Translations under genes and position numbers: made by a program
Notes under the pieces: model-generated
Seen by the model: only the letters and a program-made list of their open reading frames with translations
What the model was told of the DNA's origin: nothing
The model's database searches: none
Shown here: positions 8,486-49,709 of the stretch, piece after piece
Numbering within the stretch: position 1 is the stretch's first letter
Layout: every line of letters begins with the position of its first letter
Assembly: GCA_028532905.1 (NCBI GenBank)
Contig: JAQQAM010000063.1
Coordinates: 1-49,709 of the forward strand
DNA: 49,709 nt
Origin: Spirochaetales bacterium
GTDB taxonomy: Bacteria > Spirochaetota > Spirochaetia > DSM-2461
Direction: 5' to 3'

Positions 8486-8559
8486 CACTTGTAAAAGATG
8501 TTAGCCCCTTACTTATAACAAATGATCAATTTTTACTACATATTACTGAGGAGACAATA

Positions 8560-9432: not shown

Positions 9433-9590
9433 GCAGTCAGAGCATCCAGCTGCCGGTCGGAGAACCTGTTGATGTAATCGGGAGTCCGTCCAATGGGGGA
9501 GGGTTAGTCAAAGTCATATAACAGTGTCTCTATGATTTTATAGATAATGACGATGTGATGTTTCATTTTGACTGACGTAGAAAAGGACAT

Positions 9591-9649
9591 GACATATGTA
9601 ACTTATGGGTAAATAAAAGCTTGACATATGTGATTTAGTGGCGTACGAT
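9591..9649 (+). promoter_or_regulatory. Strong promoter with two candidate SorC operators
   Basis: A near-consensus promoter, TTGACA (9621-9626), 17 bases, TACGAT (9644-9649), drives the binding-protein gene. GACATATGTAAC (9591-9602) and GACATATGTGAT (9623-9634) share the CATATG core with the sites at 3847 and 6194. The second copy covers the -35 box, the place expected for repression. Confidence 0.68.
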
Positions 9650-9663
9650 TTTTTTATCGTACG
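9642..9663 (+). repeat. Perfect inverted repeat covering the -10 box
   Basis: CGTACGAT (9642-9649) and ATCGTACG (9656-9663) are exact inverted repeats across six T residues. The left arm contains the -10 hexamer TACGAT. This could be a second operator or a hairpin at the 5' end of the transcript. Confidence 0.6.
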
Positions 9664-9669
9664 AATAGA

Positions 9670-9688
9670 CAACTGAATTTTTCAGTTG
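9670..9688 (+). other. 5' untranslated stem-loop before the binding-protein gene
   Basis: CAACTGAA (9670-9677) and TTCAGTTG (9681-9688) form an exact 8-bp stem with a three-base loop, 16 bases before the GGAGGA ribosome site. A 5' hairpin like this commonly stabilises the mRNA of an abundant binding protein. Confidence 0.5.
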
Positions 9689-9714
9689 CAGTTTGTAAAA
9701 AATCGGAGGAAAGA

Positions 9715-22282: not shown

Positions 22283-22312
22283 ATTCATCCGGTGCGAAAG
22301 CAGGAGAAGTTG

Positions 22313-33708: not shown

Positions 33709-35107
33709 AAATATTCTTTTAATAGATGATGAAGACGGTTTACGCTTCGGTTTGAAAACTTACCTGACCAAACAGGGATATCAGGTTTTTGACGGCAGAG
33801 ACAGAAAGGATGCCCTGGCTTATGTAAATGCCTATCCCATTCATATCGCTGTTCTTGACATAAGGCTGGAGAATGAAGAAAGGGGTCTGGATTTAATTGA
33901 TCTGCTCAGGGAGAGGAATCCGGATGTTATCATACTCATGGTGACCGGCTATGCACAGCTCGAGACGGCAGTTGAAGCGATCCGGAAGGGGGCAAACGAT
34001 TACCTGGAAAAGCCCCTGGAAAATGACCGTATTCTTGATTCAATCCGTAAGAACATTGAGATATTCAATCTGAGAAAAGAAAACCGGTTGTTGCGGAATG
34101 AACTTAAAAATATAAATCCCTTTCAGCGGATTGTGGCATCCAGTCAGAGTATGAAAGACATTGTTCAGATGGCGGATAAAGTCAAAAATCTTGCCCCCAA
34201 TATTCTGATTACGGGAGAGAGTGGTACTGGAAAGGAAGTTCTGGCCCGGTATATTCATTATACAGGCCTGCGGAAAGAGAACCTTTTTGTGGGTCTCAAC
34301 AGCGCGGCATTATCCGATTCTCTTTTATTAAGCGAGCTGTTCGGTCACCGGAAAGGGGCTTTTACAGGGGCGGTGGAGAACAAAACCGGCAAGCTGGAAC
34401 TGGCTCACAACGGTACATTCTTTCTGGATGAAATTGGTGATATGAATATGGATATTCAGGCCAAGTTCTTAAGGGTTCTGGAAGAAAGAAGTTTTGAACC
34501 TCTTGGCGGGAATGAATCGGTGAATGTAGATGTTCATGTGATTGCCGCAACAAATAAAGATCTTGAGCAATTGATCCGGGAGGGGCTGTTCCGGGAAGAC
34601 CTTTTATACCGTCTGAAGGTTATTAATTTCCACCTTCCCCCCTTACGGGAGAGGGTGGAGGATATTCAGGGTCTGGCTGACAACTTCATTCTGAATTTCA
34701 ACAGGCAGTATGGAAAAAGGATCAATAAACTCTCCCCCCCGGTTCTGGAAATCCTGAAAATGCATATATGGCCCGGAAATATCCGTGAACTGAGAAATGT
34801 TATCAATCAGGCAGTCATTCTGACTGATGGAAATGATATTGATTTAGAAATAATATCCAATCTTCTGGGAAACAGGAAAATCAGAAATATAGACTCCCCC
34901 GGGAACCCTTCAGAATCCATTCCTCCCATTCTGGAAACAGGCAGTTTATCAGAGCGTATAGCACCTGTTGTTCAGTATTATGAGAAAAAGCTGATTATGG
35001 AAACTCTCTCACGTAACAATAATAATAAATCCCGAACGGCGGAGGAGCTTGGTATCACAAGAAAGACAATTGGCCGTAAATTGCAATCCTTCGAAGATTC
35101 TCCTTGA
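33695..35107 (+). CDS. NtrC-family response regulator, sigma-54 activator
   Basis: A 470-residue three-domain activator. The receiver domain (1-120) has Asp11/Asp12, the phosphorylation site Asp55 (VLDIRL) and Lys106. The AAA+ domain has Walker A GESGTGKE (174-181), the sigma-54 contact loop GAFTGA (221-226) and Walker B LDEIGD. A FIS-type helix-turn-helix ends the protein (NNNKSRTAEELGITRKTIGRKL). It is the last gene of the AraC/kinase/regulator operon. Palindromes 4-53 bases after its stop and a sigma-54 promoter 160 bases on suggest that it activates the next ABC operon. Confidence 0.96.
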   Translation: MEHYENILLIDDEDGLRFGLKTYLTKQGYQVFDGRDRKDALAYVNAYPIHIAVLDIRLENEERGLDLIDLLRERNPDVIILMVTGYAQLETAVEAIRKGANDYLEKPLENDRILDSIRKNIEIFNLRKENRLLRNELKNINPFQRIVASSQSMKDIVQMADKVKNLAPNILITGESGTGKEVLARYIHYTGLRKENLFVGLNSAALSDSLLLSELFGHRKGAFTGAVENKTGKLELAHNGTFFLDEIGDMNMDIQAKFLRVLEERSFEPLGGNESVNVDVHVIAATNKDLEQLIREGLFREDLLYRLKVINFHLPPLRERVEDIQGLADNFILNFNRQYGKRINKLSPPVLEILKMHIWPGNIRELRNVINQAVILTDGNDIDLEIISNLLGNRKIRNIDSPGNPSESIPPILETGSLSERIAPVVQYYEKKLIMETLSRNNNNKSRTAEELGITRKTIGRKLQSFEDSP

Positions 35108-35160: not shown

Positions 35161-35268
35161 GGGTGATCTGATTAATCTTGTCAATAAAAAATTGTATTAT
35201 TCTTTTTTGTTTGTTTTAAATCCTTAGCTGAGAAGCAAATGGGTAGTTTTGTTGTCTGTCGTCTCTAA

Positions 35269-35285
35269 TTGGCATGGAGTTTGTA
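35269..35285 (+). promoter_or_regulatory. Sigma-54 promoter of the third complete ABC operon
   Basis: TTGGCATGGAGTTTGTA matches the -24/-12 consensus YTGGCACG-N4-TTGCW except for a C-to-T change in each box. The spacing is exact: 12 bases from the first G of GG (35271) to the G of the -12 box (35283). Transcription would begin near 35296, leaving a leader of about 40 bases before the ATG at 35336. Confidence 0.7.
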
Positions 35286-35335
35286 ATAGTAGAAGCATTC
35301 CTGTAAAGGAAAACCAAAACAAAGGAGATTTTTCT

Positions 35336-36304
35336 ATGAAAAAATCATTATTGATGTTCTTTACGGCTTTTTTACTCTGTACGTCTGTATTTGCAGAGGG
35401 TCAGAAAGAGGCTGGAGATGAGAAAATTGTAATTTCAGGAATTGTGTTTCAGGATGACCAGTTTTTCAATACCATTCAGAAAGGTATGCAGGCCGCTGCT
35501 GAAGACCTGGGTGTAGAGCTGCTTCTTGCCAACAGCAATAATAAGCAGGACAAGGAAATGGAACTGGTAAATACCTATATAGCCAGAAAGGTGGATGCCA
35601 TTGTTATTTCTCCCTTAAGCGAAACCGCCTCTGTTGCAGCTCTTCAGAGAGCTCATGACAAAGGGATCAAAATTGTCACCTACAATTCACCCCTGAGTGC
35701 TGATTTTCCTGTTTCCTATGTAAACAGCTCTCAGAGCGAACTGGGCTCCGGTTCCGGTAAAGCCGCCAGAGAGTATATTGAAAAGAATCTTGACGGAGAA
35801 ATTCAGGTTGCCACTCTTGCGTTCAAATCTCTTCTTCCTGAAATTTCCGACATGAGAGTCAATGGATTTTTGAATGAAATCACTGACATCCCCGGAGTCA
35901 AAATTGTTTCCCAGCAGGATGCCTGGCTGGCAGAAGATGCTCTTGCCAAAGCCGGTGATATCATCACTGCCAATCCTGATCTGGATATTCTCTATGCTGC
36001 CAATGATGGCGGAACTGTCGGTTCTGTAATGGCGGTGAACAATGCCAATAAAGATATTGTTGTATTCGGCATTGATGCCAGTGAACAGCTGGCCGGTTTC
36101 CTGAAAGACAGTACCGATATTCTTCAGGCCACAACAGGCCAGCAGCCCTTTGAAATCGGATACCAGAGCATTGAGTTTGCTGTAAAAGCCATCAAGGGCG
36201 AGCCTGTAGAACCCACTGTCATTGTTCCCGGTCTGGTATTGGACAGAAGAGATCCTGCCGGCGTTGATCAGTTTCTGACAGATCTTAAGGCTATTACAAA
36301 ATAA
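35336..36304 (+). CDS. Sugar ABC transporter substrate-binding protein (PBP type 1)
   Basis: A 322-residue exported binding protein. The ATG at 35336 (MKKSLLMFFTAFLL) follows AAAGGAG and starts a clear signal peptide ending SVFAEGQKEAG; a longer reading from 35249 would run through the sigma-54 promoter. Motifs of ribose-type binders include FFNTIQKGMQAAAEDLGVELLLANSN and VDAIVISPLSETASVAAL. Its promoter features suggest control by the histidine kinase/NtrC-type pair encoded just upstream. It passes its sugar to the ATPase/permease pair that follows. Confidence 0.94.
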   Translation: MKKSLLMFFTAFLLCTSVFAEGQKEAGDEKIVISGIVFQDDQFFNTIQKGMQAAAEDLGVELLLANSNNKQDKEMELVNTYIARKVDAIVISPLSETASVAALQRAHDKGIKIVTYNSPLSADFPVSYVNSSQSELGSGSGKAAREYIEKNLDGEIQVATLAFKSLLPEISDMRVNGFLNEITDIPGVKIVSQQDAWLAEDALAKAGDIITANPDLDILYAANDGGTVGSVMAVNNANKDIVVFGIDASEQLAGFLKDSTDILQATTGQQPFEIGYQSIEFAVKAIKGEPVEPTVIVPGLVLDRRDPAGVDQFLTDLKAITK

Positions 36305-36327: not shown

Positions 36328-37824
36328 ATGAATACATTAAAACTTCAGACTGAAGGTTTGAGAAAAGTCTACCCCGGTACGGTTGCGCTGGATAACTTTA
36401 CCGTCGGATTTGACGGCGGTAAAGTTCATGCCATAATTGGTAAAAACGGATCGGGGAAAAGCACATTGATAAAAATCATATCCGGTGCTATTCAACCGAC
36501 CAGCGGAACCCTCCGGGTTGACGGTCTTGAAATGGAGATGACTACTCCGTTGGATGCTTTTGAAAAGGGTATTGCCACGGTTTATCAGGAATTGAGTCTG
36601 ATTCCCGATTTAACAGTTGCAGAGAATATCCTCCTGGGAAGACTGGAGCTTCGGGAAGGGTTGGTTAATAAAATCGACTGGAAAAAGTCCTATGCCAAAG
36701 CACAGCATGTACTTGATGAAATGGAAGTCGATATTCCAGTCGATCAGAAAGTCAAATACCTGAGTGTCGGCCAGCAGCAGGTTATTGAGATAGCCAAGGC
36801 CATGAGTTACGGGCCCCAGGTTCTCATGCTGGATGAACCGACATCGGCTCTGGCGGCCCATGAAGTGAACAGTTTATTTACTGTCATCAAGAAGCTGAAA
36901 GAGAAGGGTGTTGCCATCCTTTATATCTCTCACAGGCTGCAGGAATTGAATGAGATTGCAGACACTGTCACTGTAATCAGAGATGGCCATTTTATCGGAA
37001 AAATCGATATGGTCGATTCTACACCGGAAATTATTGTGAACATGATGTTCGGTGAAGTAGAGAAAAAACAGAGACCCCATGATCTTGAAATCAGTGATGA
37101 AACCGTTCTGGAGGTGAAAAACCTTTCGGATAACCGGCATTTTTCAGATATCAGCTTCGATGTTAAGAAAGGGGAAATCCTCGGTATCGCCGGAATGCTG
37201 GGCTCCGGAAGAACAGAGCTTCTGCGGTCAATTTTCGGTGCAGATGAGCTGAAGGAAGGATCAATAACGTTTCACGGAGAAGAGATATCAAAACCGAATC
37301 CTGTTCTTATGAAATCTCTGGGAATGGGTTTGACTCCTGAAAACCGAAAAGAAGAAGGTCTGGTTCAGGTTCTGAGTACAAACGAAAACCTCTGCCTTGC
37401 CTCATTGGATAGAATTGGAAACAACTGGGGTTATGTCACAAAAAAAATGGAAGAGCCCTTTATTGATAATCCCATTAAAAAACTTCAGGCAAAAGTACCC
37501 CGCGGCGATATGCCTGTGTCCTCTCTCAGCGGAGGAAATCAGCAGAAAATTGTTGTTGGAAACTGGTTGAACACCAATCCGACTTTAATGATTTATGACG
37601 AGCCCTCCCGGGGAATTGATGTGCAGGCGAAACAGCAGATTTTTCAGATTATGTGGGATTTAAGCCGGGAAGGAATCTCTTCTCTGGTGGTTTCATCAGA
37701 ACTGGAAGAACTCCTGGAAATCTGCCACCGCATCCTGATTATGAAACATGGTCGTATTGTAGATGAAGTACGTCCGGAAGATCTTAGTATTGAGCAATTA
37801 TATGCTATGTGCATGGAGGCATAG
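36328..37824 (+). CDS. Sugar ABC transporter ATP-binding protein (RbsA class)
   Basis: A 498-residue double ATPase. Domain 1 has GKNGSGKST, LSVGQQQVIEIAKA and VLMLDEPTSAL. Domain 2 has GMLGSGRTE, LSGGNQQKIVVGNWL and LMIYDEPSRGID, the second Walker B ending in the Ser-Arg variant seen in many sugar ATPases. The start ATG lies 23 bases after the binding-protein stop behind GGGGAAG, with no hairpin between them, unlike the other importers here. The permease starts three bases after its stop. Confidence 0.95.
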   Translation: MNTLKLQTEGLRKVYPGTVALDNFTVGFDGGKVHAIIGKNGSGKSTLIKIISGAIQPTSGTLRVDGLEMEMTTPLDAFEKGIATVYQELSLIPDLTVAENILLGRLELREGLVNKIDWKKSYAKAQHVLDEMEVDIPVDQKVKYLSVGQQQVIEIAKAMSYGPQVLMLDEPTSALAAHEVNSLFTVIKKLKEKGVAILYISHRLQELNEIADTVTVIRDGHFIGKIDMVDSTPEIIVNMMFGEVEKKQRPHDLEISDETVLEVKNLSDNRHFSDISFDVKKGEILGIAGMLGSGRTELLRSIFGADELKEGSITFHGEEISKPNPVLMKSLGMGLTPENRKEEGLVQVLSTNENLCLASLDRIGNNWGYVTKKMEEPFIDNPIKKLQAKVPRGDMPVSSLSGGNQQKIVVGNWLNTNPTLMIYDEPSRGIDVQAKQQIFQIMWDLSREGISSLVVSSELEELLEICHRILIMKHGRIVDEVRPEDLSIEQLYAMCMEA

Positions 37825-37827
37825 ATA

Positions 37828-38829
37828 ATGTATACATGGATAAAAGAAAATAATCCTCTGAAAAAACAGATGCTACTTTCCATACTGGTTATACTCTGTA
37901 TTTTTCTTTCATTTGCAGCACCAGGCTTTTTCACAATTAATAACTTTTTGAATGTTCTCAGGAACTCTTCAATGCAGGGCATTATCGCCTTCGGAATGAC
38001 CATGGTCATGATTGCCGGAGAAATTGACCTGAGCGTGGGATCAGCAGTAGCTTTTGCCGGCTGCCTGACAGCCTGGGTCGTCAAGACTTTAACTGCCCTG
38101 GGTATGGGTGCTCCTCTGGCGGTTTTGTGCGGTATCGCTCTGGCTCTGATTGTCGGTTATTCACTGGGTGTCTTTTCGGCATCCGTCAGGAATAAATTCG
38201 GTGTGCCCACTTTCATTATTACCCTGGCTTTAATGACAGCCCTGTCGGGTTTCGCAAACCTGATTACAGGCGGCTTTCCCATTGTTCCCTTTCCCATGTG
38301 GTATAACTTCCTCGGGGGCGGTTATGTTCTGGGTATTCCTGTTCCGGCGATTATGCTGGTTCTGGTTTTCCTGATTGTAAACTTTATTATGACCTCCACC
38401 ACCTTCGGACGCTCAGTATATGCCGTCGGCGGTAATATGGAAGCAGCCAGACTCAGCGGTATTAAAGTCGCCCGCATCAAGATGATCATCATGGGAATCA
38501 CATCTTTGCTTATGGCCGTTGCAGGAGTTATGGTCTCTTCACAGATCATGTCGGGTACGGCGTCCACTGCCAAAGGCTGGGAACTGGATGTTATCTCCTC
38601 CGTCGTTATCGGGGGTACCAGCATGAACGGCGGAAGCGGATCGGTAAAGGGAACCTTTATCGGTATTATATTCCTGGGTGTGGTGGTCAATGGAATGACC
38701 CTGATGAATATCAATGAATACTGGCAGTATGTTGTTAAGGGATTTCTGATTCTGGGAGCCGTTCTGCTGAATGTTATTCATGAGAATAAAAAAATCAACA
38801 GTATTGCAGATGCCAAGGCGGCAGCCTGA
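37828..38829 (+). CDS. Sugar ABC transporter permease (RbsC-like)
   Basis: A 333-residue membrane protein with the classical motif VMIAGEIDLSVGSAVAFAG and the coupling region SSVVIGGTSMNGGSGSVKGTFIG. It is the only permease of this operon and so should act as a homodimer. It is followed by a terminator at 38870, which separates the sigma-54 operon from the mutarotase-like gene. Confidence 0.95.
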   Translation: MYTWIKENNPLKKQMLLSILVILCIFLSFAAPGFFTINNFLNVLRNSSMQGIIAFGMTMVMIAGEIDLSVGSAVAFAGCLTAWVVKTLTALGMGAPLAVLCGIALALIVGYSLGVFSASVRNKFGVPTFIITLALMTALSGFANLITGGFPIVPFPMWYNFLGGGYVLGIPVPAIMLVLVFLIVNFIMTSTTFGRSVYAVGGNMEAARLSGIKVARIKMIIMGITSLLMAVAGVMVSSQIMSGTASTAKGWELDVISSVVIGGTSMNGGSGSVKGTFIGIIFLGVVVNGMTLMNINEYWQYVVKGFLILGAVLLNVIHENKKINSIADAKAAA

Positions 38830-38914: not shown

Positions 38915-40123
38915 ATGAAAGGGGAAAGAATAAGAGAAGCTGGAAACCGGGAAGCCGTACTGTTGAGCCATGAAAGGCTGCGGGTTGTGATCGATGCAGA
39001 CAAGGGAATGGTTCCCGAACTCAGTACACGGTTCCGGGGTGGATGGATCAATGCCCACTGGCAGCCCTGGTTCCGGTCAAACAGCGGTGCACACTGGCAG
39101 CAGGAAACGCACTCCCCCTTCTGGAAAGTGCCCCTCTTGTATGATATTGCCGGGAATTTCCCCTGTTTTCCTAATTTCGGTCCTGATCAGAGCTATCATT
39201 CCTATTCCCTCCCTCCCCACGGGTATACGGCTTTTTGTAGGTGGACTCAGAATAGCCCGGTTTCCACAGAGGACACGGTCTCTCTGGAAAGCGCTCTGGA
39301 AACAGGGGATCATCCCTTCAGTTATTCCAAAAAGGACCTGCTGATTCAGGGGCAGAATGTCCATTTTACAAAGCTGACGGTCAGAAACAACTCCGGGGAA
39401 ACAGAAGCCTATAACTGTGGCTGGCATAATACGGTAGGCGCCCCTTTTCTGGAAAGCGGATGTCTGATTGATAATAATTCAGAGCAGTATGCAGTGCCCC
39501 CCGAAGGCAGTGAATTTGACAGCACTGGTTCTCTGGCATTCGGAACCTTCACCGACAGTCTGGAAAGGGTTCCTCTGCGGGACGGGGGCACCGCCAACCT
39601 GCGGATTGTACCCGGAGTGACAGGCAACACCGACTTTATCAGCGGAGCTGTTCCCCGGAATTGCCACCTGGGCTGGAGCTCTGTAGTTAATCCCAGACTG
39701 AAACTGATATATCTTTCCTTTTTCAAAGGCCCCGCTTCCCTGGGTGCTGAAGATATCCCGCTGTATTTCTATGATCTGTGGATGAACTACGGGGGCCGCC
39801 CCTATACACCCTGGGCCGCCTGTGACGGTTATACGGATCAGACCTTTTGTCTGGGAGCGGAGAATATAACAGGATACTATGGCAGCGGATTGAATGATTC
39901 TGTAAAGAATCCGGAGTTAATGGGTAATCCCACCCATCTGAACCTGAAGGGGGGAGAAGAGAAAACTCTGTTCTACGGTACTCTTTTTCAGGACTATGAG
40001 GGAGATCTGTTCGACAAAGGCATCCGGTCTGTTGAGGCGGAGCCGGGTTTCCTGATTCTCAACAGCTACAATGGCCAGTATGTGAAGATCAGCTGTGATG
40101 CGGCTTTTGAGAGGCTGGCATAA
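38915..40123 (+). CDS. Aldose 1-epimerase-like (galactose mutarotase fold) protein
   Basis: A 402-residue soluble protein that I read as a member of the galactose mutarotase-like superfamily. Evidence is a beta-rich pattern with LSTRFRGGWINAHWQPWF near the start, LPPHGYTAFCRW (His-Gly turn) around residue 100, and KLTVRNNSGETEAYNCGWHNTVGAPF typical of the mid-sheet strand pair. Such proteins interconvert sugar anomers or bind sugars without catalysis. It starts at an ATG behind GGGGGAGAG, just past the terminator, and shares one base with the AraC gene that follows (TAATG). The match is by pattern only, so the activity is open. Confidence 0.65.
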   Translation: MKGERIREAGNREAVLLSHERLRVVIDADKGMVPELSTRFRGGWINAHWQPWFRSNSGAHWQQETHSPFWKVPLLYDIAGNFPCFPNFGPDQSYHSYSLPPHGYTAFCRWTQNSPVSTEDTVSLESALETGDHPFSYSKKDLLIQGQNVHFTKLTVRNNSGETEAYNCGWHNTVGAPFLESGCLIDNNSEQYAVPPEGSEFDSTGSLAFGTFTDSLERVPLRDGGTANLRIVPGVTGNTDFISGAVPRNCHLGWSSVVNPRLKLIYLSFFKGPASLGAEDIPLYFYDLWMNYGGRPYTPWAACDGYTDQTFCLGAENITGYYGSGLNDSVKNPELMGNPTHLNLKGGEEKTLFYGTLFQDYEGDLFDKGIRSVEAEPGFLILNSYNGQYVKISCDAAFERLA

Positions 40124-41007
40124 TGCCCCGAAAGCAATTTGAGATGCCCCTTGAAGCTCTGCCTCGTCTGAGCCACTTCGGCTTTTCTGATAATGTAAAG
40201 AAATACAGTTACGGCCCCCATTATCATTACGGTTTTGAAATGATCTTCGTGACAAAAGGGCAGGCCGAGGTTGAGTTGTTCAAAGGGAAGGCTCCAGTCA
40301 GCCTGAGGCAGGATGATCTGTGCATTATTTCTCCGGGAATTGTCCATGAGTTTATTTACGACAGGGAAACCATCTCATTTTTCTGGCTGGGATTTCAGAC
40401 GGGGCATCAGGTTGCGGTTTCTCCCTGTCATATGCAGCCTCCCCGCAGGCTGATTCAAAAAGAAACGGAACACAAGGTGGAATACTCCACATTGATAAAC
40501 AAGGAAATAGATGAAATCACCGCCAACATGCAGACAGGAGATTACAATCTGTATCATAAGGTTCCCTATTTTTCACAGATCTTTTCCGATATCAATGAAG
40601 AACTCCACAACCGGGATCAGTACAGTGTAAAAATCGTCTACCAGAAAATACTGGAGATTTTCACAAAGATCGCCAGGATAGCAACAGAGGACAAACGGGT
40701 AGAGAATCCGCCTCTTCATTATTTCAAGAATTACCTTGATTCCCATTGCACTGAAAAGGTGGATTTTCAGTTATTGTCTGAGAAGACGGGCTATTCACAG
40801 GAACATTTATCCAGACTGTTCAAGGTTTCATACGGCCGGTCTCCCAAAAGTTATCACAATGAAAAACGGCTGAATAAAGCCTGCCAGATTCTGTCCCGGG
40901 GAGCCTCTGTTGATTACACAGCCCGTCTGTGCGGCTTTAATTCCCCATCCTATTTCAGTGTCTGGTTCAAGAAGCAGACGGGTCGGCCCCCTCAAAAATA
41001 CCTTTGA
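40123..41007 (+). CDS. AraC-family transcriptional regulator
   Basis: A 294-residue regulator. The N-terminal cupin sensor (about 20-110) includes GPHYHYGFEMIFVTKGQAEVELF and ISPGIVHEFIYD. The C-terminal DNA-binding region (about 195-294) has the two helix-turn-helix units, VDFQLLSEKTGYSQEHLSRLFKVSYG and VDYTARLCGFNSPSYFSVWFKKQTG. It is coupled to the mutarotase-like gene by a one-base overlap, so the pair is a regulator and sugar-handling unit. It converges on the CobW-type gene with a 16-base overlap. Confidence 0.93.
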   Translation: MPRKQFEMPLEALPRLSHFGFSDNVKKYSYGPHYHYGFEMIFVTKGQAEVELFKGKAPVSLRQDDLCIISPGIVHEFIYDRETISFFWLGFQTGHQVAVSPCHMQPPRRLIQKETEHKVEYSTLINKEIDEITANMQTGDYNLYHKVPYFSQIFSDINEELHNRDQYSVKIVYQKILEIFTKIARIATEDKRVENPPLHYFKNYLDSHCTEKVDFQLLSEKTGYSQEHLSRLFKVSYGRSPKSYHNEKRLNKACQILSRGASVDYTARLCGFNSPSYFSVWFKKQTGRPPQKYL

Positions 41008-41891
41008 AGCTTCTGTGCTATTTCATCCCTGTTTTCATCAGAGGTGAACAGCACCATTTTACACTCTCCCCCATAATCTTTCTTCAGTTCGGATGAAAAG
41101 AAGTTCTCCCCGTCAAACTGCACATCTTCCCAGATCTCAGAGTTCTTAATAAGTCCTTTCATGCGGATGATTTTGTCAGAATGGTCCCGGCAGAAGGCCT
41201 GAATACGGTCTTTTTTAACCTTTTGTGCCTGTTCCCTGTCCAGGGTTATGGTCTGAATGTTGTCTTTATGACCGGTCTCATTATTCTGATTATTCAGGGT
41301 GCTGTTGAACAGGAACCTGCCTGCTGCCGGCCGGACAATCTTTATATCCTTATGGCTGCTCCGGATATGATTGTTCACTTCCTCAATCAGGTCTTCCGGA
41401 TAAATATCGGTTTTGGTGAGCTTGATTCCGGGAGAACCCTCAAACTGGCTGTCATAAATCCTGAGTTTCCCTTTCATCTTTTTATACTGCAGGCAGTCTA
41501 CGGTGACTGTAACCGGATCAACCGTGACCCCATCCTCTTCGGAGAAATGTTTCTCAAGAGTCTTTCTCATTTCATCGGGAACTGCCAGGCCTGTTGCCTC
41601 TATATAAATGATACGGGGGGCTTCATTTTTTATGATATCTGAAATTCCTGTAATCAGATCCGCTTTCAGGGAGCAGCACAGGCATCCCCCGGTTATCTCC
41701 ATCATGCTGTATTGCTCATGAATGATGAGGTCCCCATCCAGGGCGACAGAACCGAATTCGTTGATAACCAGGGCAATTCCTGCATCGGGAACAGCCTGAC
41801 TCAGTATCCTGTTCAGGTAGGTCGTTTTACCGCTCCCGAGAAATCCTCCGATAATTTTAATTGTCGAATGTGCCATACTTTTTTGCTGCAT
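40992..41891 (-). CDS. CobW/G3E-family GTPase (metallochaperone)
   Basis: A 299-residue P-loop GTPase of the G3E family. It has Walker A GGFLGSGKTT (15-24), the metal-binding CxCC in GGCLCCSLKADL (Cys70, Cys72, Cys73), and IEATGLAVP and LTKTDIYPE at the nucleotide-specificity positions. Members deliver zinc, cobalt or nickel to enzymes, or serve cobalamin pathways. It overlaps the upstream URO-D-family gene by 35 bases, or 20 if it starts at the Met at residue 6. It probably supplies zinc or supports a corrinoid step for that enzyme. The C-terminal CobW_C part ends with VLFTSDENRDEIAQKLQRYF. Confidence 0.92.
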   Translation of the reverse strand: MQQKSMAHSTIKIIGGFLGSGKTTYLNRILSQAVPDAGIALVINEFGSVALDGDLIIHEQYSMMEITGGCLCCSLKADLITGISDIIKNEAPRIIYIEATGLAVPDEMRKTLEKHFSEEDGVTVDPVTVTVDCLQYKKMKGKLRIYDSQFEGSPGIKLTKTDIYPEDLIEEVNNHIRSSHKDIKIVRPAAGRFLFNSTLNNQNNETGHKDNIQTITLDREQAQKVKKDRIQAFCRDHSDKIIRMKGLIKNSEIWEDVQFDGENFFSSELKKDYGGECKMVLFTSDENRDEIAQKLQRYF

Positions 41892-42906
41892 TAATCATAG
41901 CTCTCATATTGTCTTCCGGGGTTCGCCGTCCCATAGCGCAGCCGCTGGACAGGAAAAGGTGTTTTCCTCCGGTCGCTTCAATAATGGCTTTTGCCTTCAG
42001 GTCTACTGCTTCCGGGGTTCCGTAAACCAGGGGATCGCTGGGATCTATATTACCCATAAGAACAGCCCTTCCGTCAACAATTTCGCTTGCTTTCTTCATA
42101 TCCACCTGCCAGTCCACTTCCAGAATACTGGCTCCTGTACTGACCATGTCTTCAATGATTTCATTTGTGTTGCCGCAAATGTGGAGGCTCCAGGGAATTC
42201 CGTAATCCTGCACCTGTTTACATAATGTAATTTCGTGTTCCAGAGCAAATTCTCTGAACATTTCGGGGCTGATCAGATTAGGTCCGGCATAGGAATCTCC
42301 AATGGATGTGGCATGGGCTCCTGCATCTTTCTGGGCTTTGGCAAATCTGAGGTTCGCTTCCCGGCACCAGTCCAGGGCTTTCCAGATAACCTCCGGTTCT
42401 TCGGTAATCAGTTCCATCATAAGGTTCTGTGTTCCTCTGAGAAGACACAGCAGGTCAAAGGGGCCCTGATCCGAGCGGCCCATAACAAATACCCGGTCTC
42501 CGATATCGGCAATAAGACGTTCTGTGGCTTCCAGCCAGGCGGGAAGTCTTCCGTCTTTCAGTGGATCCGGAAACTCCATGTCACTGAACTGTCTTAAGTC
42601 TGTGACCAGGGGATTATGCTCATCTACAAGAGCCGGTTCATCGGGGTTGTCAAAGATAACGGTGGCTCCGCAGGCTTCTGCCAGTGAGGCGTCATCAATA
42701 TCAATTACACAGCCGTCATAGCCGTATTTATCCTGGCTTATCCTATGGCTTTCTGCCATGAGTCTGCCGTCTTTATTCATATCTCCGATTCGAAAACCGG
42801 CTGTTTCAGCGGCAAACATAAATGTCTGGGGAACCACGGGGACTCTGTCGGGAGTTTCTTTGTTTAATACGGCCTGACACCGCTCCAGTCCTGTCATTTC
42901 TTTCAT
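41857..42906 (-). CDS. URO-D/MtaA-CmuA-family methyltransferase-like protein
   Basis: A 349-residue TIM-barrel protein of the URO-D superfamily that keeps the full zinc site of corrinoid methyltransferases: His242-x-Cys244 in SLHICGNT and Cys323 in SSGCAMGRRTPEDN. Enzymes of this type (MtaA, MtbA, CmuA) pass methyl groups between a corrinoid protein and a thiol. No corrinoid protein gene is in the window, so the methyl partner would be elsewhere. It lies between a membrane desaturase gene (13 bases upstream) and a CobW-type GTPase gene (overlapping). It differs from the URO-D protein at 22.3 kb, which lacks the third ligand. Confidence 0.88.
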   Translation of the reverse strand: MKEMTGLERCQAVLNKETPDRVPVVPQTFMFAAETAGFRIGDMNKDGRLMAESHRISQDKYGYDGCVIDIDDASLAEACGATVIFDNPDEPALVDEHNPLVTDLRQFSDMEFPDPLKDGRLPAWLEATERLIADIGDRVFVMGRSDQGPFDLLCLLRGTQNLMMELITEEPEVIWKALDWCREANLRFAKAQKDAGAHATSIGDSYAGPNLISPEMFREFALEHEITLCKQVQDYGIPWSLHICGNTNEIIEDMVSTGASILEVDWQVDMKKASEIVDGRAVLMGNIDPSDPLVYGTPEAVDLKAKAIIEATGGKHLFLSSGCAMGRRTPEDNMRAMINAAKKYGTFDN

Positions 42907-42919
42907 ACAAATCTCCTTC

Positions 42920-43900
42920 TTATGTGTTTGATTTATGCTTGTTGTGTAATTGTCTTATATCCCTCCAGGTTCTTATGAAGCCTTTGGATGAGGGGGGTAA
43001 ATCGTCTTCAATCAGCTTATGCAGTTTCTTCAGGTTATAGCAGGGCACGGCTGCATACATATGGTGTTCAATGTGGTAGTTCATGTTCCAGTACAGGAAT
43101 CTGAGGAAGGGATTCAGCAGAATTGTCCTGGAGTTTTTCCTGTGGTCATCATTGTCTCCTGTCAGACCGATGTGCTGAGTAGGATTCAGAAAATACAGGA
43201 ATCCGGAACCGTAAAAGGGGGCCAGGGTGACAAGAACGATCATTTCGGGGATGTTGAAATACAGACAAAACAGGAGTATCAGCAGGTGTCCGGCCACTGT
43301 CACCCGTGCCCATGCAATCAGAGCCTTTCTTTCCTCCTGCTTCTCTTCGGGGAACAGGTGCTTTTTCCATTCTGCACTGAAGGCCCCCAGTCCGCTGTAC
43401 ATCTTGCCATCCACTCTCCCGGCAGCCAGGAAGAGGGTTCCCCAGAGAGTTTCCACAAACCCCAGAGGATTCACAATGCCCCGCAGAAGGAACTCTTTGA
43501 ATGTCAGTATGATGGGGAGGATCACTTCCTGATCTTTTTCACTGTTCAGTGTGTAGAAATGGTGCTCCCTGTGGCTGGCACTGAAAAAAACATGATTATT
43601 CCAGCTTAAAAAACTGAAGAGTCTGTAAAAAAAGCGGCTGAGCCCCTTGGATTTGAAAACCGTATTATGGCTCAGTTCATGAAAGCCGTTGAGCATAAAG
43701 GAATAAAAAAAACCGTGAACCAGGAGGATGAGCAAAGCAGGAACCAGCTTCAGGTTATGAAATCCCCATAGGGCTGCTGCCGCTGAAAAGACCAGCAGCA
43801 TAAGGTAGCCCAGTGTCTGGACAAGACCTTTGATATCACTTCTGGCGGAAACAGATTTTAACTCTTCTTTTGTCAATGGCGATTTGTACCATCTGGTCAT
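42920..43900 (-). CDS. Membrane fatty acid desaturase/hydroxylase-family di-iron protein
   Basis: A 326-residue membrane protein with the three histidine boxes of the desaturase family: HELSH (74-78), HREHH (110-114) and HIEHH (276-280), plus QHIG near 242. Four or so hydrophobic segments surround them. Family members are oxygen-dependent desaturases, hydroxylases or ketolases acting on lipids. It is the first gene of a leftward operon, with a CTCCTT-complement ribosome site (AAGGAGG), followed by the methyltransferase-like and CobW-type genes. An oxygen-using enzyme beside a methyltransferase and a metallochaperone is odd, and the substrate need not be a fatty acid. Confidence 0.9.
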   Translation of the reverse strand: MTRWYKSPLTKEELKSVSARSDIKGLVQTLGYLMLLVFSAAAALWGFHNLKLVPALLILLVHGFFYSFMLNGFHELSHNTVFKSKGLSRFFYRLFSFLSWNNHVFFSASHREHHFYTLNSEKDQEVILPIILTFKEFLLRGIVNPLGFVETLWGTLFLAAGRVDGKMYSGLGAFSAEWKKHLFPEEKQEERKALIAWARVTVAGHLLILLFCLYFNIPEMIVLVTLAPFYGSGFLYFLNPTQHIGLTGDNDDHRKNSRTILLNPFLRFLYWNMNYHIEHHMYAAVPCYNLKKLHKLIEDDLPPSSKGFIRTWRDIRQLHNKHKSNT

Positions 43901-44179: not shown

Positions 44180-45310
44180 CTAATGATTTCCAATATCCTT
44201 GATGGTTCCCCCGTCGTGGATATAGGGCGGAAAGGTATAGGAATAATCATGATTGCGGTAGTCGGGATCTGCCACCATTTTCAGTATGTTCTGACCAACC
44301 CGGACTCCCATTTCAAACCCCGGGTGAATGGATGCTGTAATGTTCCGTTCCTCCCAGTCAGATCCGGAATAGTCGAAACAGACAATGGAATAGTCCTCGG
44401 GAACAGCAATCCCCTTGTCAGAGAAAATTTCCATCATCATATTCAATATCATATAGTTACAGCAGACAACCGCGCTTACCTTGGGAAGGCCCTTGAGGAA
44501 TTTCCAGAGGGTCTTGGGAAAGTTTTTTTTGTCGTAGCTTTCATCAGAGACGCACCATTTGACATATTCATCCTTGAAAACGCAGTCGTATTTGATAAGA
44601 GAACGCATAAAACCATTGTATTTTTCCTGACCCTGATAGTTGTCATACATGAATATGCCTGCGATATGCCTGTGCCCCCTTTCCCGGAGCCGTCTGATCA
44701 GTTCATCCGCGCATCGGGCATCATCAATAATAACTTTGTGATAAGGAGTCCCCATATAATAGTTATTGAAAAAAATCAGGCGTATGTTCTTCTGATCGAT
44801 CCTGGCATAGGAATCAAGATTCGGGTTCAGGATGCTGGCTTTCACTCCATCAACAATCAAACCGTCAAACCCGGTAGAACAGGATTCCAGGCATTTTCTT
44901 TCATTGGAGAGTTTGTTGTCGGTCATGAATATTTTCAGTTCAACCGAGTCTTTATTCAAGGCCTGCTTGATACCGCGAACCAGATTCGAACTGGTGTTGT
45001 AGTCATGGCCCTGGGTAATGAATCCGATCTGGGTTTTACCCTTCTTTTCCTGAGTGTGTTCTTTTAGGGCAGAGCTTTTATTGAAAAAGGATCCACTTCC
45101 CTGAATCGTATAGGCCCGGTTTTCTTCGATGAGTAGTTTCATGGCAGTCCGGACTGTTTCCCTGCTCATTCCGAACTTCCGGCACAGGAAGTTTTCGGAG
45201 GGCAGCTTGTTATTGAGGGTGAATTTATTCTGATCGATATAGATTAAAAGAAAATCATATACTTTGAGATACTTTTTCTGTTTCGGTATAAGGTCTTTAA
45301 TGTCGTCCAG
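44180..45310 (-). CDS. AraR-like regulator: GntR DNA-binding domain plus LacI/PBP1 effector domain, non-standard start
   Basis: The helix-turn-helix reads LPSENFLCRKFGMSRETVRTAM, a GntR-type domain. It is followed by GSGSFF and a LacI/GalR-type sugar-binding domain (KTQIGFITQGHDYNTSS to ASIHPGFEMGVRVGQNIL). This is the AraR architecture. The first in-frame ATG (45169) cuts the helix-turn-helix in half, so translation must begin upstream. The frame is open back to a TAG at 45332 and holds no ATG, GTG or TTG. A CTG at 45310 has GAGGA seven bases before it and gives a 376-residue protein; I use it as the best guess. It follows the sulfatase by about 40 bases. Confidence 0.8.
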   Translation of the reverse strand: MDDIKDLIPKQKKYLKVYDFLLIYIDQNKFTLNNKLPSENFLCRKFGMSRETVRTAMKLLIEENRAYTIQGSGSFFNKSSALKEHTQEKKGKTQIGFITQGHDYNTSSNLVRGIKQALNKDSVELKIFMTDNKLSNERKCLESCSTGFDGLIVDGVKASILNPNLDSYARIDQKNIRLIFFNNYYMGTPYHKVIIDDARCADELIRRLRERGHRHIAGIFMYDNYQGQEKYNGFMRSLIKYDCVFKDEYVKWCVSDESYDKKNFPKTLWKFLKGLPKVSAVVCCNYMILNMMMEIFSDKGIAVPEDYSIVCFDYSGSDWEERNITASIHPGFEMGVRVGQNILKMVADPDYRNHDYSYTFPPYIHDGGTIKDIGNH

Positions 45311-45353: not shown

Positions 45354-46724
45354 TCAAACTGAATCCAGGATACGAACCCTTTTCCGGTCTCCACCGTATT
45401 CCGCTTCCGCAATCCAGTCCAGAAGTTTTTCCCTTAAATCCATCTTGATTTCCAGGTACTCTTCGCAGTCTTTCAGGTCGGATTGCTGATGAGGATCTTT
45501 GTTCAGATCGTAAAGGTAGTCGTCCGCATAGACGTCGCTGTCCTTAAAAAGCCCTCCGTTTTTACCCGGAGCATAGACAGCATAAGTATAATCCGCTGTG
45601 CGGAGAACTCTGCCGACCCGGCTTTCGGAAACCTGGACAAACACTTCATTTTTCCGGAGGGGATTTCCTTCAACCACAGTGATCAAATCTTCTCCGATCA
45701 TGGGAATCTCTTCCTTTTTACCCGCCATGGCAAGCATCGTCCGCGGCAGACTGGTGGTACTCACAAGGTCTTTGATTTCCCTGCCTCCAAGATACTTCCC
45801 TCCCCGGATTACCAGAGGGACTCTGATAGAGGCATCGTGTCCGCTCCGTTTATAGTCATCATAGCCGTTTTTATGGCTGTCGTTGTTTCTGGTTCTGAAA
45901 TGAGATCCATGGTCGGAAGTAAAAATGATGATTGTATCCTCATAGATCCCTTTGTCTTTCAGGGCCTGTATCAGGCGTCCGAAGTTTCTGTCAATGCTCT
46001 CACAGGCTCCCAGATAATCGGGATATTCCTGGCTGGCATCGCCGATCCCGTTGTTCAGATCTTCAGGCAATCGGGAATCCTTATATTTTTCTTTTGAACC
46101 TTCGGGACCCTGGTAGTGACCCGCATTGTTCTGATGATGAGGCTCTATATGGGACACGGTCAGGAAGAAAGGCTTTGTTCCGGATCGCTGATCCAGGAAT
46201 TCCAGAGCGTAGTCTGTAATGCAGTCCGCCCGGTATCCTTTGAAATCAAGTTTGTTCATATGTTCGTCGAATACATAGCCGCCAAAACCGTCGGAAGTGA
46301 ACTCCAGAACATCCGAGGCTCTCCAGAAACCTGTATATCCGCCGCGGTGCTCAAGAGGTATGGGGGCATCATGAAAGTCCAGTCGGGGTTTGGTTTCCAG
46401 TTCTCCATCAGAAGCCAGATGCCATTTTCCCACATAGGCTGTTTCATACCCGGCCGATTCAAAATAGTGTCCCAGAGTTTTACTATCCCCGGGAAGGGCA
46501 ATATTGTTTCTGAAACAGCCGGTGCTTGTGGGATAAAGGCCGGTCTGGAACAGTGAGCGGCAGGGACCGCAGACAGGCTGCGGAGTGAAGGCGTGTTCGA
46601 ATCTCACCCCTTCTGAGGCAAACTGATCAAGTTCCGGAGTGGTATTCAGTTCCTGTCAGTAACAGCCGCATGTGTCGGCTCTCTGCTGATCTGAAAAGTA
46701 AAAAATTATATTAGGTTGAGGCAT
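45354..46724 (-). pseudogene. Type I sulfatase interrupted by an in-frame TGA at codon 23
   Basis: The downstream 417 residues are a formylglycine sulfatase. The CxPxR activation motif appears as PVCGPCRSLFQTG, then YVGKWHL and FTSDHGSHF, with metal and substrate residues. The true start is the ATG at 46724 (MPQPNIIFYFSDQQ) behind GGAGAT, overlapping the tctA-like stop by 14 bases. After CGCY the frame meets TGA (46658-46656), then continues QELNTTPELDQFASEG, the normal family sequence. Sulfatases usually have Gly there, so GGA-to-TGA is a one-base change. The part before the TGA carries the first metal aspartate, so an internal GTG start would yield an incomplete site. Recoding or sequencing error are alternatives. 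Confidence 0.85.
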
Positions 46725-48216
46725 TGGTATCTCCAGTTGTGTTTTCATTCATTTTGCCTTTGATTATGACAAAGAGGGACAGGGCTATAATTGCCAGTAG
46801 GGCAATGCTGATGGGAGAGGACGTAAAAATCCCCCAGCTGCCGTCTGACAGGATCAGGGAGCGCCTGAAATTTTCTTCTGTTATGGGACCCAGAACCAGG
46901 CCGAGAAGAACCGGAATCGCTGGAATCTGAAATTTATTCAGCAGGTAGGCCAGCACGGCAAAGCTCAGGGCTATTTGAATATCAAACATGGATGTTTTAA
47001 CCGAATAGGCTCCGGCAAAGCAGAAAATCACAATGACCGGGGTCAGTATGGCAATGGGAATCTTAATAATCCTGGCAAACAGAGGGGTCAGGAACTTTCC
47101 CTGCAGAAACATAAAGAGGTTGACGAATACAAGCCCCAGCATGATGGCATACATGGTCACTCCGTGATCCACAAAGAGCTTGGGTCCCGGGGTCAGTCCG
47201 TTTATCATAAGGGCTCCCAGCATAATAGCCACAGATCCGTCACCTGGAATTCCCAGAGTCAGAAGGGGGATAAGGGTAGCACCTGTTACGGCGTTATTTA
47301 CTGTTTCCGTGGCGGCTATTCCTTCAATAGAACCATTGCCGAATTCTTCAGGTGTTTTACTCATTCTTTTGGCCCGGTCATAGCTGACGAATGAAGCCAT
47401 TGATGCTCCGGTTCCGGGAATGATTCCGATGATCACACCGATCAGGGAGGAAAGGAGGGCGGGCCTGGCCATTTTTTTGTAATCGGCTTTGGTGATAGAG
47501 TTCAGTTTCTTTTCTTCTTTTTCAAGGTTGACTTTTGCGATAACCTCTGTTTTTTCGCTCTTTTTAAGAACTTCGCTCAAGGCAAAAAGACCGATAAGAC
47601 AGATGACCAGATCAAACCCCGAATAGAGGTTGATGTTGTTGAAGATAAAACGGGTATTGCTGGTCATGGGGTCCAGGCCGATGGTAGCGATGAATAGACC
47701 AAGTGCTCCGGCCATAAGTCCTGTTATGAGTGTTTTTCCGGATACTCCGGCAATGATGGTAAGACCGAAGGCGCAGACAAGAAAGTATTCGGGAGTTCCC
47801 ATCTTCTGAGCAAAGATACTGACCTGCGGAGCCAGGAAAAGAAGAACAACGGCACTGATGATTCCACCAAATGTCGATGCCTGCAGTGCCAGTTTGAGGG
47901 CTTTATGGGTCTGTCCCTTCCTGGACAAAGGGTAGCCGTCCAGCATGGTCGCAGTAGCGTGGGGAGTTCCCGGTGTCCGTATGAGAATTGCTGAAATAGA
48001 TCCGCCGTAGCTTCCGGCGCAGTACATTCCCAACAGGAACATAAATGACTGGATCGCTCCCATGGAATAGGTGAAGGGTAGAAATAAAACAATACATAAA
48101 ATAACTGTCAGACCGGGGATGGCTCCAAAGACCATTCCCAGAAGCAGACCAATATTCATGGCAATAAAATTCGAAAACTGAAACAGTTGCTGAAAACCTT
48201 CAATAAATAAATTCAT
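46711..48216 (-). CDS. Tripartite tricarboxylate transporter large membrane subunit (TctA family)
   Basis: A 501-residue membrane protein of about 11-12 segments when started at the ATG at 48216 (MNLFIEGFQQLF) behind AGAGGA; a reading from 48246 would overlap the tctB-like gene more. Family marks are MFGAIPGLTVILC near the start and GGSISAILIRTPGTPHATATMLDGYP. A second copy of the repeat reads IGIIPGTGASMASFVSYDRAKRMSK. It forms the channel that, with the TctB and TctC proteins, imports a carboxylate driven by an ion gradient. The next gene in the operon is a sulfatase, so the substrate may be a sulfated or carboxylated compound. Confidence 0.95.
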   Translation of the reverse strand: MNLFIEGFQQLFQFSNFIAMNIGLLLGMVFGAIPGLTVILCIVLFLPFTYSMGAIQSFMFLLGMYCAGSYGGSISAILIRTPGTPHATATMLDGYPLSRKGQTHKALKLALQASTFGGIISAVVLLFLAPQVSIFAQKMGTPEYFLVCAFGLTIIAGVSGKTLITGLMAGALGLFIATIGLDPMTSNTRFIFNNINLYSGFDLVICLIGLFALSEVLKKSEKTEVIAKVNLEKEEKKLNSITKADYKKMARPALLSSLIGVIIGIIPGTGASMASFVSYDRAKRMSKTPEEFGNGSIEGIAATETVNNAVTGATLIPLLTLGIPGDGSVAIMLGALMINGLTPGPKLFVDHGVTMYAIMLGLVFVNLFMFLQGKFLTPLFARIIKIPIAILTPVIVIFCFAGAYSVKTSMFDIQIALSFAVLAYLLNKFQIPAIPVLLGLVLGPITEENFRRSLILSDGSWGIFTSSPISIALLAIIALSLFVIIKGKMNENTTGDTNAST

Positions 48217-48229
48217 AGTAGACAATCCT

Positions 48230-48778
48230 CTAAGGCAGCCGGACATGAAGGATGTCTTTGAAAAGAAATCCGATCAGTATGGCCAGAGTGGTAACCAGGA
48301 GATAATACTTCCAGTTTTTGACGCGAAAATAAAACAGCATCAGAATTCCGTAGATCACTGAAGACAGCATGAAGCCCAGTACCGGCATGAGCAGGGAATA
48401 AATGATTAAAAACAACAAAAGAATCAGAGCTTTTATCTCTGTCAGAATATAAACTTCCACATACTCAAGAGGCTCCTTCCTGTATTTTTGCAGTCCTGTT
48501 TTTATAAGGTTTAATAGGGCTCCTCCCATCATGATAAAGGCAAGGATCGAGGGAAAGGTTTGGGCTGTAATGGTTTGATCAGCACGTACTTTGATCTGAT
48601 ACGGCATCAAAATCAGAATCAGAGCGGAGAGGGCCAGGAAAAAAACAGAGCCCGCAATAGTGGGGTATATTCGGAATTCCCTGTTCTCCAGATGCCGGGC
48701 GGTATGGTCGATTGTGTTGTCAATTTTCTGAATCAGGTGTGTAAATGTTGAAAATATTTTGATTTGAGTGGATCTCAT
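48230..48778 (-). CDS. Tripartite tricarboxylate transporter small membrane subunit (TctB family)
   Basis: A 182-residue membrane protein with four hydrophobic segments (about 41-60, 75-95, 112-140 and 150-172), the TctB layout, and a charged N-terminal stretch of about 40 residues. It lies between the tctC-like and tctA-like genes, as is normal for this transporter. It starts at an ATG behind AAGGAT. Sequence is poorly conserved in this family, so the call leans on topology and position. Confidence 0.85.
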   Translation of the reverse strand: MRSTQIKIFSTFTHLIQKIDNTIDHTARHLENREFRIYPTIAGSVFFLALSALILILMPYQIKVRADQTITAQTFPSILAFIMMGGALLNLIKTGLQKYRKEPLEYVEVYILTEIKALILLLFLIIYSLLMPVLGFMLSSVIYGILMLFYFRVKNWKYYLLVTTLAILIGFLFKDILHVRLP

Positions 48779-48800
48779 TGATATCCTTCTTTGGAAACAG

Positions 48801-48828
48801 GCCCCGGAGAGGTTTCGAGTTCCGGGGC
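48801..48828 (-). other. GC-rich hairpin between tctC-like and tctB-like genes
   Basis: GCCCCGGA (48801-48808) and TCCGGGGC (48821-48828) form an exact 8-bp stem with a 12-base loop in the 62-base gap. No T tract follows in the direction of transcription. Its place after a binding-protein gene matches the hairpins at 10788 and 25594. Confidence 0.6.
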
Positions 48829-48840
48829 TGTTGTGAGAAA

Positions 48841-49709
48841 TTACAGATTGCTTTTTACGATAGCGGTTACATCTTCGATGTGTTTGTTGATTTTTTCGAG
48901 ATCCAGGGGATCGACTTCAATCATAAGAGATTTATAAAAATCAACCATTTCCGGTTCTTCGAGAATGGACAGGTAGGCGTCTCTTACTTTGGATATGACA
49001 GTAGGATCTGTTCCCTTTCTGGCAAGAATGAAACAGCGGTTTCTGAAATAACCGGTATATCCGTATTCACCCACACCTTTTACATTTTTAAAGACTTCGT
49101 TATTCACTCCGTTTTCATCAAACATAACAACAGGATTGAGAATTCCGCCTTCCACACTTCCTTTTGCCTGAGACTGATGAGAAATGGCAAATGCAGTTTC
49201 TCCCTTGGCTGCGGCATCGAGAGCCAGGTTGGCACCGTTGTAACTGATCAGTTCCAGGTTCAGTCCCAGCTCCTGAAACAGGGCTTTTGCCAGAAAGGCT
49301 TCGGAACCGGCCATTCCATTGACCGCCACTTTTAGTTTTTTTCCCTTCCCCGTAGGCTTTAAGAGATTCCAGATCTGTAATGCCCAGTTTGGCATCGGCT
49401 GTCATGACGAAAATTGAAGAATACAGGTTGATAACGGGGATGTAGTCGTCGTATGAAAACTGAAGAGCATCGGCACCGTCCACATTGGGGGCAATGGAAA
49501 ATGCTCCTTCCGCTCCAAAAATCAGAGTCTCGGAATTGGGACCGTTTTTCAGGTAGTTGGTGAGTGCTACGTTTCCTCCCGCTCCCAGTTCGTTTGTAGC
49601 CAGTACGGGAACTCCCAGGTATTCAGGTCCGAAAGTGGCTGCTTTTCTGTTGACGATGTCGGCGACTCCCCCCCACTGCCCAGGGACAGACAATGGTCAC
49701 AGGACCTTC
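48841..49709 (-). pseudogene. Tripartite tricarboxylate transporter substrate-binding protein (TctC family), two frameshifts, 5' end outside the window
   Basis: Three frames must be joined to read a TctC-type periplasmic binding protein. From the right edge, EGPVTIVCPWAVGG runs in one frame. At a run of seven C (49668-49674, G on the coding strand) it passes to GVADIVNRKAATFGPEYLGV. At a run of seven T (49336-49342, A on the coding strand) it passes to KLKVAVNGMAGSEAF and on to the stop. Removing one base from each run restores one frame of about 290 codons. The N-terminal signal peptide is beyond the window. The lesions may be real or homopolymer read errors. Confidence 0.85.

Follow-up and report, generated by a model that had tools for sequence, protein, structure and literature searches.

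A MocD-related oxygenase gene paired with a zinc methyltransferase gene in a spirochaete: a possible demethylation module for imported methylated sugars or cyclitols

We suggest that three genes of a Spirochaetales bacterium (assembly GCA_028532905.1, contig JAQQAM010000063.1) may form a demethylation module for a small, imported, methylated sugar- or cyclitol-like compound, in which an O2-dependent and a corrinoid-dependent demethylase would be joined by a CobW GTPase serving the zinc enzyme; we put the probability of this reading at just under one half (about 0.48). The operon occupies 40992-43900 of the window, by which we mean the whole 49,709-nucleotide (nt) stretch analysed. This is the entire contig C63 of a 4.98-Mb genome in 296 contigs (G000, the organism's own genome; G, L and C label the genomes, loci and contigs compared). 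The compound would enter through the adjacent sugar-type ATP-binding cassette (ABC) importer. With O2, a MocD/AlkB-type membrane di-iron monooxygenase would remove its methyl group oxidatively, as formaldehyde; without O2, an MtaA-like zinc methyltransferase would move the methyl group to or from a corrinoid protein, which, like its RACo activator, would be supplied in trans from contig C125, and the CobW GTPase would bring zinc to the methyltransferase. We infer the substrate, both reactions, the use of corrinoid in trans, the division by oxygen and the role of CobW. The gene families themselves are known; to judge from the sequences, the new element would be that MocD-related oxygenases are repeatedly paired with methyltransferases of the URO-D family, which our searches of an open-access library did not show to have been described.

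The three genes lie on the minus strand. The desaturase-like gene (42920-43900) encodes a membrane di-iron enzyme of the FA_desaturase superfamily, MocD/AlkB-like and a putative O2-dependent demethylase; the MtaA-like gene (41857-42906, mtaA hereafter) encodes a zinc methyltransferase-like protein of the URO-D superfamily with His-Cys-Cys ligands; and the cobW gene (40992-41891, starting at 41891 or 41876) encodes a COG0523/CobW-type G3E GTPase, a putative metal chaperone. A gap of 13 nt separates the first two, and mtaA overlaps cobW by 20 or 35 nt (start at 41876 or 41891, respectively). Shine-Dalgarno-like sequences precede the desaturase and mtaA genes, that of mtaA (AAGGAG) lying inside the 13-nt gap. 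From this spacing, co-transcription of the trio is likely; promoter and terminator scans gave counts at chance level. A regulator gene (44180-45169) lies 279 nt upstream on the same strand, and on the 3' side cobW and a convergent araC gene overlap at their ends. The original prediction, made from the letters of the window, had described these three genes, a methyltransferase keeping all three of its ligands, and no corrinoid protein nearby. All of this was borne out: the open reading frames (ORFs) have exactly the coordinates it gave, their Pfam families are confirmed and their motifs intact, the zinc ligands H242, C244 and C323 are present, and the window holds no corrinoid protein, the genome's four B12-binding_2 matches being on C292, C125 and C207.

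The desaturase-like protein matches FA_desaturase (PF00487) with 106 bits (cut-off 29.7). Its histidine boxes (H74, H78, H110, H113, H114, H243, H276, H279 and H280) do not vary across an alignment of 42 sequences, and its AF2 model (pLDDT 91.5) has the FA_desaturase-type boxes and the fold expected of MocD. A MocE-type Rieske ferredoxin lies within 3 kb of, or is fused to, 39 of 80 relatives from named genomes; the ferredoxin of the one relative scanned reached 142.1 against TIGR02377 (cut-off 136.15). The L092 relative is fused to Rieske and reductase domains, and that of L042 to rubredoxin and reductase; the L042 fusion (7959-10277, from a Verrucomicrobia metagenome-assembled genome, MAG) is seemingly a self-sufficient form of the family. 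On rhizobial plasmids the relatives stand alongside genes for MocE, an FAD reductase, a PanB-like protein, PurU, a binding protein, Gfo/Idh/MocA and inositol functions, in sets that vary; an R. indicum plasmid gathers Gfo/Idh/MocA, solute-binding protein (SBP), PLP-type regulator, desaturase, MocE, FAD reductase, PanB-like and PurU genes within about 11 kb, and PurU (C1-folate) and inositol genes occur near desaturase relatives at more than one such locus. Release of the methyl group as formaldehyde would be consistent with these folate-C1 genes. In a midpoint-rooted tree of 99 sequences, without outgroup, the window protein falls in a clade (support 0.957) free of MocE-linked leaves, the sister clade of which is the MocD family. 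We therefore take it to be a relative of MocD, not its orthologue, which probably works like MocD.

The pairing with URO-D extends beyond the window. A URO-D gene lies within 300 bp of a desaturase gene at 9 of 30 spirochaete places, as counted with a URO-D profile over all six-frame ORFs of at least 100 aa, because a simple longest-ORF caller was poor on GC-rich contigs (G034). The 30 places omit fragmentary matches (G002:C309, the later G004:C6 pieces, G034:C61, G034:C171:95597 and G034:C71:11320) as well as G078:C545, and the profile was seeded with own-genome loci from the longest-ORF caller, at least two of which (L208, L219) seem to be antisense ORFs and had their ligand rows ignored. 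The nine paired places are not nine independent events, since two of them (G003, G004) are orthologous to the window pair and another has a weak URO-D match (G019:C177, 44 bits). Within the genome itself, three of four desaturase places are paired (C63; C188, with one URO-D gene on each side; and C38, convergent). Given 32 URO-D matches in this genome of about 5 Mb and a gene number of 4,700, assumed from genome length, this is unlikely to arise by chance (about 1e-5, or 5.5e-4 for two of three once the window pair is set aside). Gaps between same-strand pairs run from -4 to +129 nt. URO-D is also the immediate neighbour in 5 of the 80 named loci, L040 and G019:C248 being one and the same contig and L041, L044 and L049 deriving from a single MAG.

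URO-D genes accompany Rieske-fused desaturases as well, directly at C188 and two genes away at L080 and L092, two Bacteroidota MAG loci in which a TIM-barrel gene (AP_endonuc_2, below cut-off in L092) stands between desaturase and URO-D. In the C188 region of the genome (34648-35529; L120 12217-13563), URO-D genes flank a paralogous desaturase that carries, as a fusion, the one Rieske domain detected in this genome, which we count in favour of the demethylation reading. The zinc ligands of the URO-D partners differ: His-Cys-Cys (HCC) in the window group and at C38; His-Cys-His (HCH) at C188, L044, L051 and G021:C111, and also at L092, two genes away; HDH at G019:C248 and G021:C317; and HCD at L049. 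The L041 partner reads HD with an unclear third ligand, and that of L080 was cut and gave no ligands.

The methyltransferase is placed by its URO-D match (PF01208, 218.8 bits, cut-off 23.9) and by its best PDB relative, the methylcobalamin:CoM methyltransferase 4ay7 (E 2e-29). Calling it MtaA-like is correct as a likeness; the protein stays under every MtaA/CmuA NCBIfam cut-off matched (NF004889, 184.9 of 244; TIGR01463, 179.9 of 235.4; MtaA, 158.4 of 400). Its best plasmid relative (33%) has a cobalamin-dependent protein encoded on one side and an ASKHA protein on the other, a classical corrinoid setting. The search for an accompanying corrinoid protein that the original prediction had called for led to one candidate: the single free-standing methyltransferase-type corrinoid protein of the genome, encoded in trans on C125 together with RACo and PocR genes. 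The two B12-domain proteins of C207 appear, from their first residues, to be regulators. Against this single corrinoid protein stands a large URO-D expansion in the same genome, with varied sets of zinc ligands. The CobW protein, for its part, scores 119.9 bits against cobW (PF02492, cut-off 20.7) and carries the motifs of COG0523/CobW G3E GTPases (P-loop GFLGSGKT; CxCC, as CLCC; TKTD), its C-terminal domain falling slightly under the cut-off (19.8 vs 22). Because COG0523 genes cluster with mtaA, mtaB and mtaC, according to an excerpt of PMC2770081, CobW may be the zinc supplier of the methyltransferase.

Desaturase matches (E<=0.001) occur in 9 of 80 genomes, the own genome included, and matches to the mtaA protein in 5 of 26 genomes of the order (E<=1e-60) and in 8 of 392 genomes sampled evenly from the phylum (E<=1e-50). 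In two genomes of the same genus, G003 and G004, the desaturase (66% and 63%) is adjacent to an mtaA orthologue (88% and 79%), with no cobW there. G004 has an additional, divergent mtaA copy (82%); G003 has a second copy (C1:2286760-2287632) that four in-frame stops mark as an apparent pseudogene. In G048, of another family, mtaA (72%) and a cobW gene (34%) share 4 nt, and in G041, of yet another family, no cobW follows mtaA (76%). In G005, mtaA stands at the end of a contig, accompanied by araC and importer genes and without cobW downstream, the stretch before it being beyond the contig end. A conserved three-gene system was accordingly rejected: the trio stands together in the own genome and in no second one of those compared, and what recurs is each pair (desaturase with mtaA in G003 and G004, mtaA with cobW in G048). 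Separation of the three genes in related genomes, which the original prediction had named as counting against it, is thus seen in part. The recurrence of mtaA with the importer in G003, G004, G005 and G041, while desaturase and cobW vary, indicates that mtaA and the importer are the core and the other two alternating partners, as far as gene order tells.

The importer locus lies on the plus strand, beyond the araC gene. It comprises genes for a histidine kinase (31540-33708; HATPase_c 84.3 bits, HisKA 41.4), a response regulator (33695-35107, read from sequence, with orthologues in the same four genomes), a sugar-type periplasmic binding protein (35249-36304; Peripla_BP_4, 160 bits), an ABC ATPase (36328-37824) and an ABC permease (37828-38829), the last two read from sequence; all three importer genes have orthologues near mtaA in G003, G004, G005 and G041. 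There follow W402 (38915-40123), which has no Pfam match, and the AraC-type regulator gene (40123-41007; PF12833, 70.4 bits), convergent with the operon, whose orthologues lie near mtaA in G003, G004 and G005 (L117 66%, L118 52%, L187 43%). In G003 (L117) the order on one strand is SBP, ATPase, permease, then desaturase and mtaA; in G041 (L250) it is SBP, ATPase, permease and, after a 4-nt gap, mtaA, with 64, 61, 58 and 76% to the window proteins. One-strand arrays of importer and desaturase/URO-D genes are also present in L136, L142 and L145 (the L136 importer was read from sequence and the L142 ATPase was not called). The W402 model, of low confidence (pLDDT 60.7), has a galactose-mutarotase-like fold and matches galactose mutarotases (best E 4e-10); of the 80 named loci, 8 have a W402 relative close to a MocD-family gene, and in L117, L186 and L192 one is found close to an mtaA-type gene. 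This suggests that the importer and the mutarotase-like protein are the common part and that the demethylase varies.

The same context bears on the substrate. The original prediction had guessed at oxidation or demethylation of a methylated membrane or amine compound, with the GTPase loading metal. Demethylation and metal loading find support in the context; a membrane compound does not, since the genes akin to the desaturase encode MocD-type small-molecule oxygenases and lie in sugar/inositol loci, and either the pair (G003) or mtaA alone (G041) follows a sugar-type importer.

A number of observations weigh against the demethylation reading, several of them concerning the oxygenase. The window desaturase lies outside the MocE-linked clade, with no ferredoxin or reductase gene beside it; no MocE-type match was found at the window locus, and the only Rieske match of the genome is the one on C188. 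For its closest named relatives, L037-L039 (49-50%), the stretches examined contain no MocE gene and no URO-D gene. The genome gave no match to cytochrome bd or to a haem-copper oxidase, for which reason the use of O2 by the organism is uncertain; this absence fits an anaerobe that meets O2 occasionally. As for the fold, VIA-align gave as best match to the window model an algal FtsHi-complex subunit (Z 19.8) and reported AlkB at Z 12.3 (rmsd 4.4-4.5, 271-273 residues), a Z reachable by chance for helical models, and SCD1 at Z 5.8 (192 residues). Foldseek returned algal subunits and, weakly, SCD1 (E 0.46, TM 0.38), AlkB being absent from its list, so the fold argument for likeness to AlkB is that of a single aligner; phmmer against PDB sequences gave chance-level matches only.

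These data could be taken to mean that an ordinary lipid desaturase stands by chance upstream of an unrelated methyltransferase/chaperone pair. The Pfam name FA_desaturase, the membrane nature of the protein, the trio's lack of conservation, the presence of SCD1 among the weak Foldseek matches and the closest named relatives without a telling neighbour would all suit that explanation. It is nevertheless very improbable: lipid-desaturase NCBIfam models score far under their cut-offs (DesB 27.7 of 500 bits, DesA 24.9 of 500), relatives with ferredoxin partners occupy sugar/inositol loci, the pairing with URO-D is repeated, and VIA-align, as one aligner, places AlkB above SCD1. A lipid desaturase was rejected as the principal explanation on the profile scores and on the neighbours of the relatives.

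Also on the negative side for demethylation, the desaturase lacks a URO-D neighbour within 300 bp at 21 of the 30 spirochaete places, all nine of G034 included, and mtaA has no adjacent desaturase in G048 or in G041, where a desaturase lies 7.6 kb further. No methyl-corrinoid:folate transferase was found in the genome except MetH, its two Pterin_bind matches being a MetH-like frame of 837 aa and an apparent dihydropteroate synthase. As for W402, among five plasmid loci of its family inspected, of 32, one has an annotated desaturase, and the family occurs at sugar loci without one. The link between W402 and MocD is for this reason not exclusive, and W402 is weakened as a specific MocD marker.

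The two enzymes might instead act in series, the URO-D protein using the product of the oxygenase, or the window URO-D protein methylating a thiol acceptor after another URO-D protein has acted, for example that encoded at 22292-23575 on the plus strand of the window (PF01208, 64.7 bits; ligands His-Cys-His), which has a 55% relative in G021 (C111, L142) 3 nt from a desaturase gene. Methyl-corrinoid:thiol enzymes have His-Cys-Cys ligands, according to an excerpt of PMC10418091, an extra HCN-type URO-D gene lies within about 11 kb (G003) and about 3 kb (G048) of mtaA, and the want of a folate methyltransferase other than MetH would agree. We consider a series improbable, however, since oxygenase and URO-D seem not to need each other: an MtaA-type gene occurs without an adjacent desaturase in G041, G048 and G019:C68, and the rhizobial MocD loci read have no annotated URO-D gene.

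The ligands themselves count against an O-methyl substrate, His-Cys-Cys sets being said, in the excerpt of Kountz and Balskus (PMC10418091), to favour S or Se over O substrates. On a different explanation, then, the substrate would be a methyl-sulfur or -selenium compound such as methylthioribose, the MtaA-like protein would demethylate a thio- or selenoether, and the oxygenase would be an S-dealkylating or S-oxidising partner. The window protein and its aligned close relatives have the His-Cys-Cys set that the same excerpt ties to S/Se; the genome encodes selD (366.9 bits); and a 35% relative in G019 (L192) lies 45 nt from a W402-family gene, beside Sulf_transp, Se/S-carrier and aminotransferase class V genes. 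At the window locus, by contrast, no sulfur-trafficking genes were seen, the oxygenase relatives accompany inositol and C1-folate genes, and eight of nine aligned URO-D partners within 300 bp of a desaturase, outside the window orthologue group, are not His-Cys-Cys. We regard an S/Se substrate as unlikely, and retain demethylation of a methylated sugar or cyclitol as the preferred reading.

The closest known counterpart is the MocDEF rhizopine oxygenase of rhizobia. As excerpts of the two sources have it, the mocD operon is needed for catabolism of L-3-O-methyl-scyllo-inosamine (3-O-MSI; PMC3538637), and MocD is the oxygenase that turns 3-O-MSI into SI (PMC2593844). The window shares with MocDEF an FA_desaturase-superfamily oxygenase (30% identity to the R. 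indicum protein), a sugar-type importer context, carbohydrate-type regulators and, at some loci, a W402-family protein; it differs in that its desaturase belongs to a separate clade without MocE/MocF partners and is paired with a URO-D gene, none being annotated at the rhizobial MocDEF loci read. With MtaA, MtbA, CmuA and the Mlp proteins of type 1 MGCs, as an excerpt describes them (PMC10418091), the window methyltransferase has the URO-D family and the His-Cys-Cys ligands in common, and CobW neighbours are likewise known for mtaA clusters (excerpt of PMC2770081). In contrast to those systems, the window cluster has no corrinoid protein or activase, its protein scores below the NCBIfam cut-offs, and its apparent partners are an O2-dependent enzyme and a sugar importer. 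Type 1 mlp clusters, by the excerpted account, hold several Mlps, a corrinoid protein and a Ram/RACE protein together (PMC10418091), and the window does not. P450 demethylation of 6-O-methyl-D-galactose by marine bacteria resembles our proposal in being O2-dependent, acting on a methyl sugar and releasing formaldehyde (excerpt of PMC10033563); the enzyme there is a P450 and not a membrane di-iron protein, and the opening of the abstract mentions no anaerobic partner.

Some further features may be recorded. The W402 family, which lacks a Pfam match, is present in rhizobial and spirochaete sugar loci, and its match on Agrobacterium Ti plasmids comes in two pieces covering 58%. Within the window, sulfatase and tripartite tricarboxylate transporter genes (45354-49395) lie beyond the regulator upstream of the operon, and 19908-22142 encodes a 744-aa protein in which a LacI-type DNA-binding and sensor part is joined to an SBP_bac_1 solute-binding domain.

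Plant and algal matter commonly contains methylated sugars and cyclitols, and to our knowledge little is known on how anaerobes remove methyl groups from such compounds. We would tentatively raise the broader possibility, with the odds against it, that anaerobic spirochaetes have repeatedly built operons with two unrelated demethylases, one a di-iron enzyme that needs O2 and the other an O2-sensitive corrinoid/zinc system, both directed at one methylated sugar or cyclitol that the cell imports, that demethylation would thereby continue under fluctuating O2, and that dozens of URO-D enzymes may share one corrinoid protein. If true, this would amount to an oxygen-switched strategy of demethylation, and both the URO-D expansion and unnamed "fatty acid desaturases" would acquire a function from the repeated association of an oxygenase with a corrinoid-type methyltransferase.

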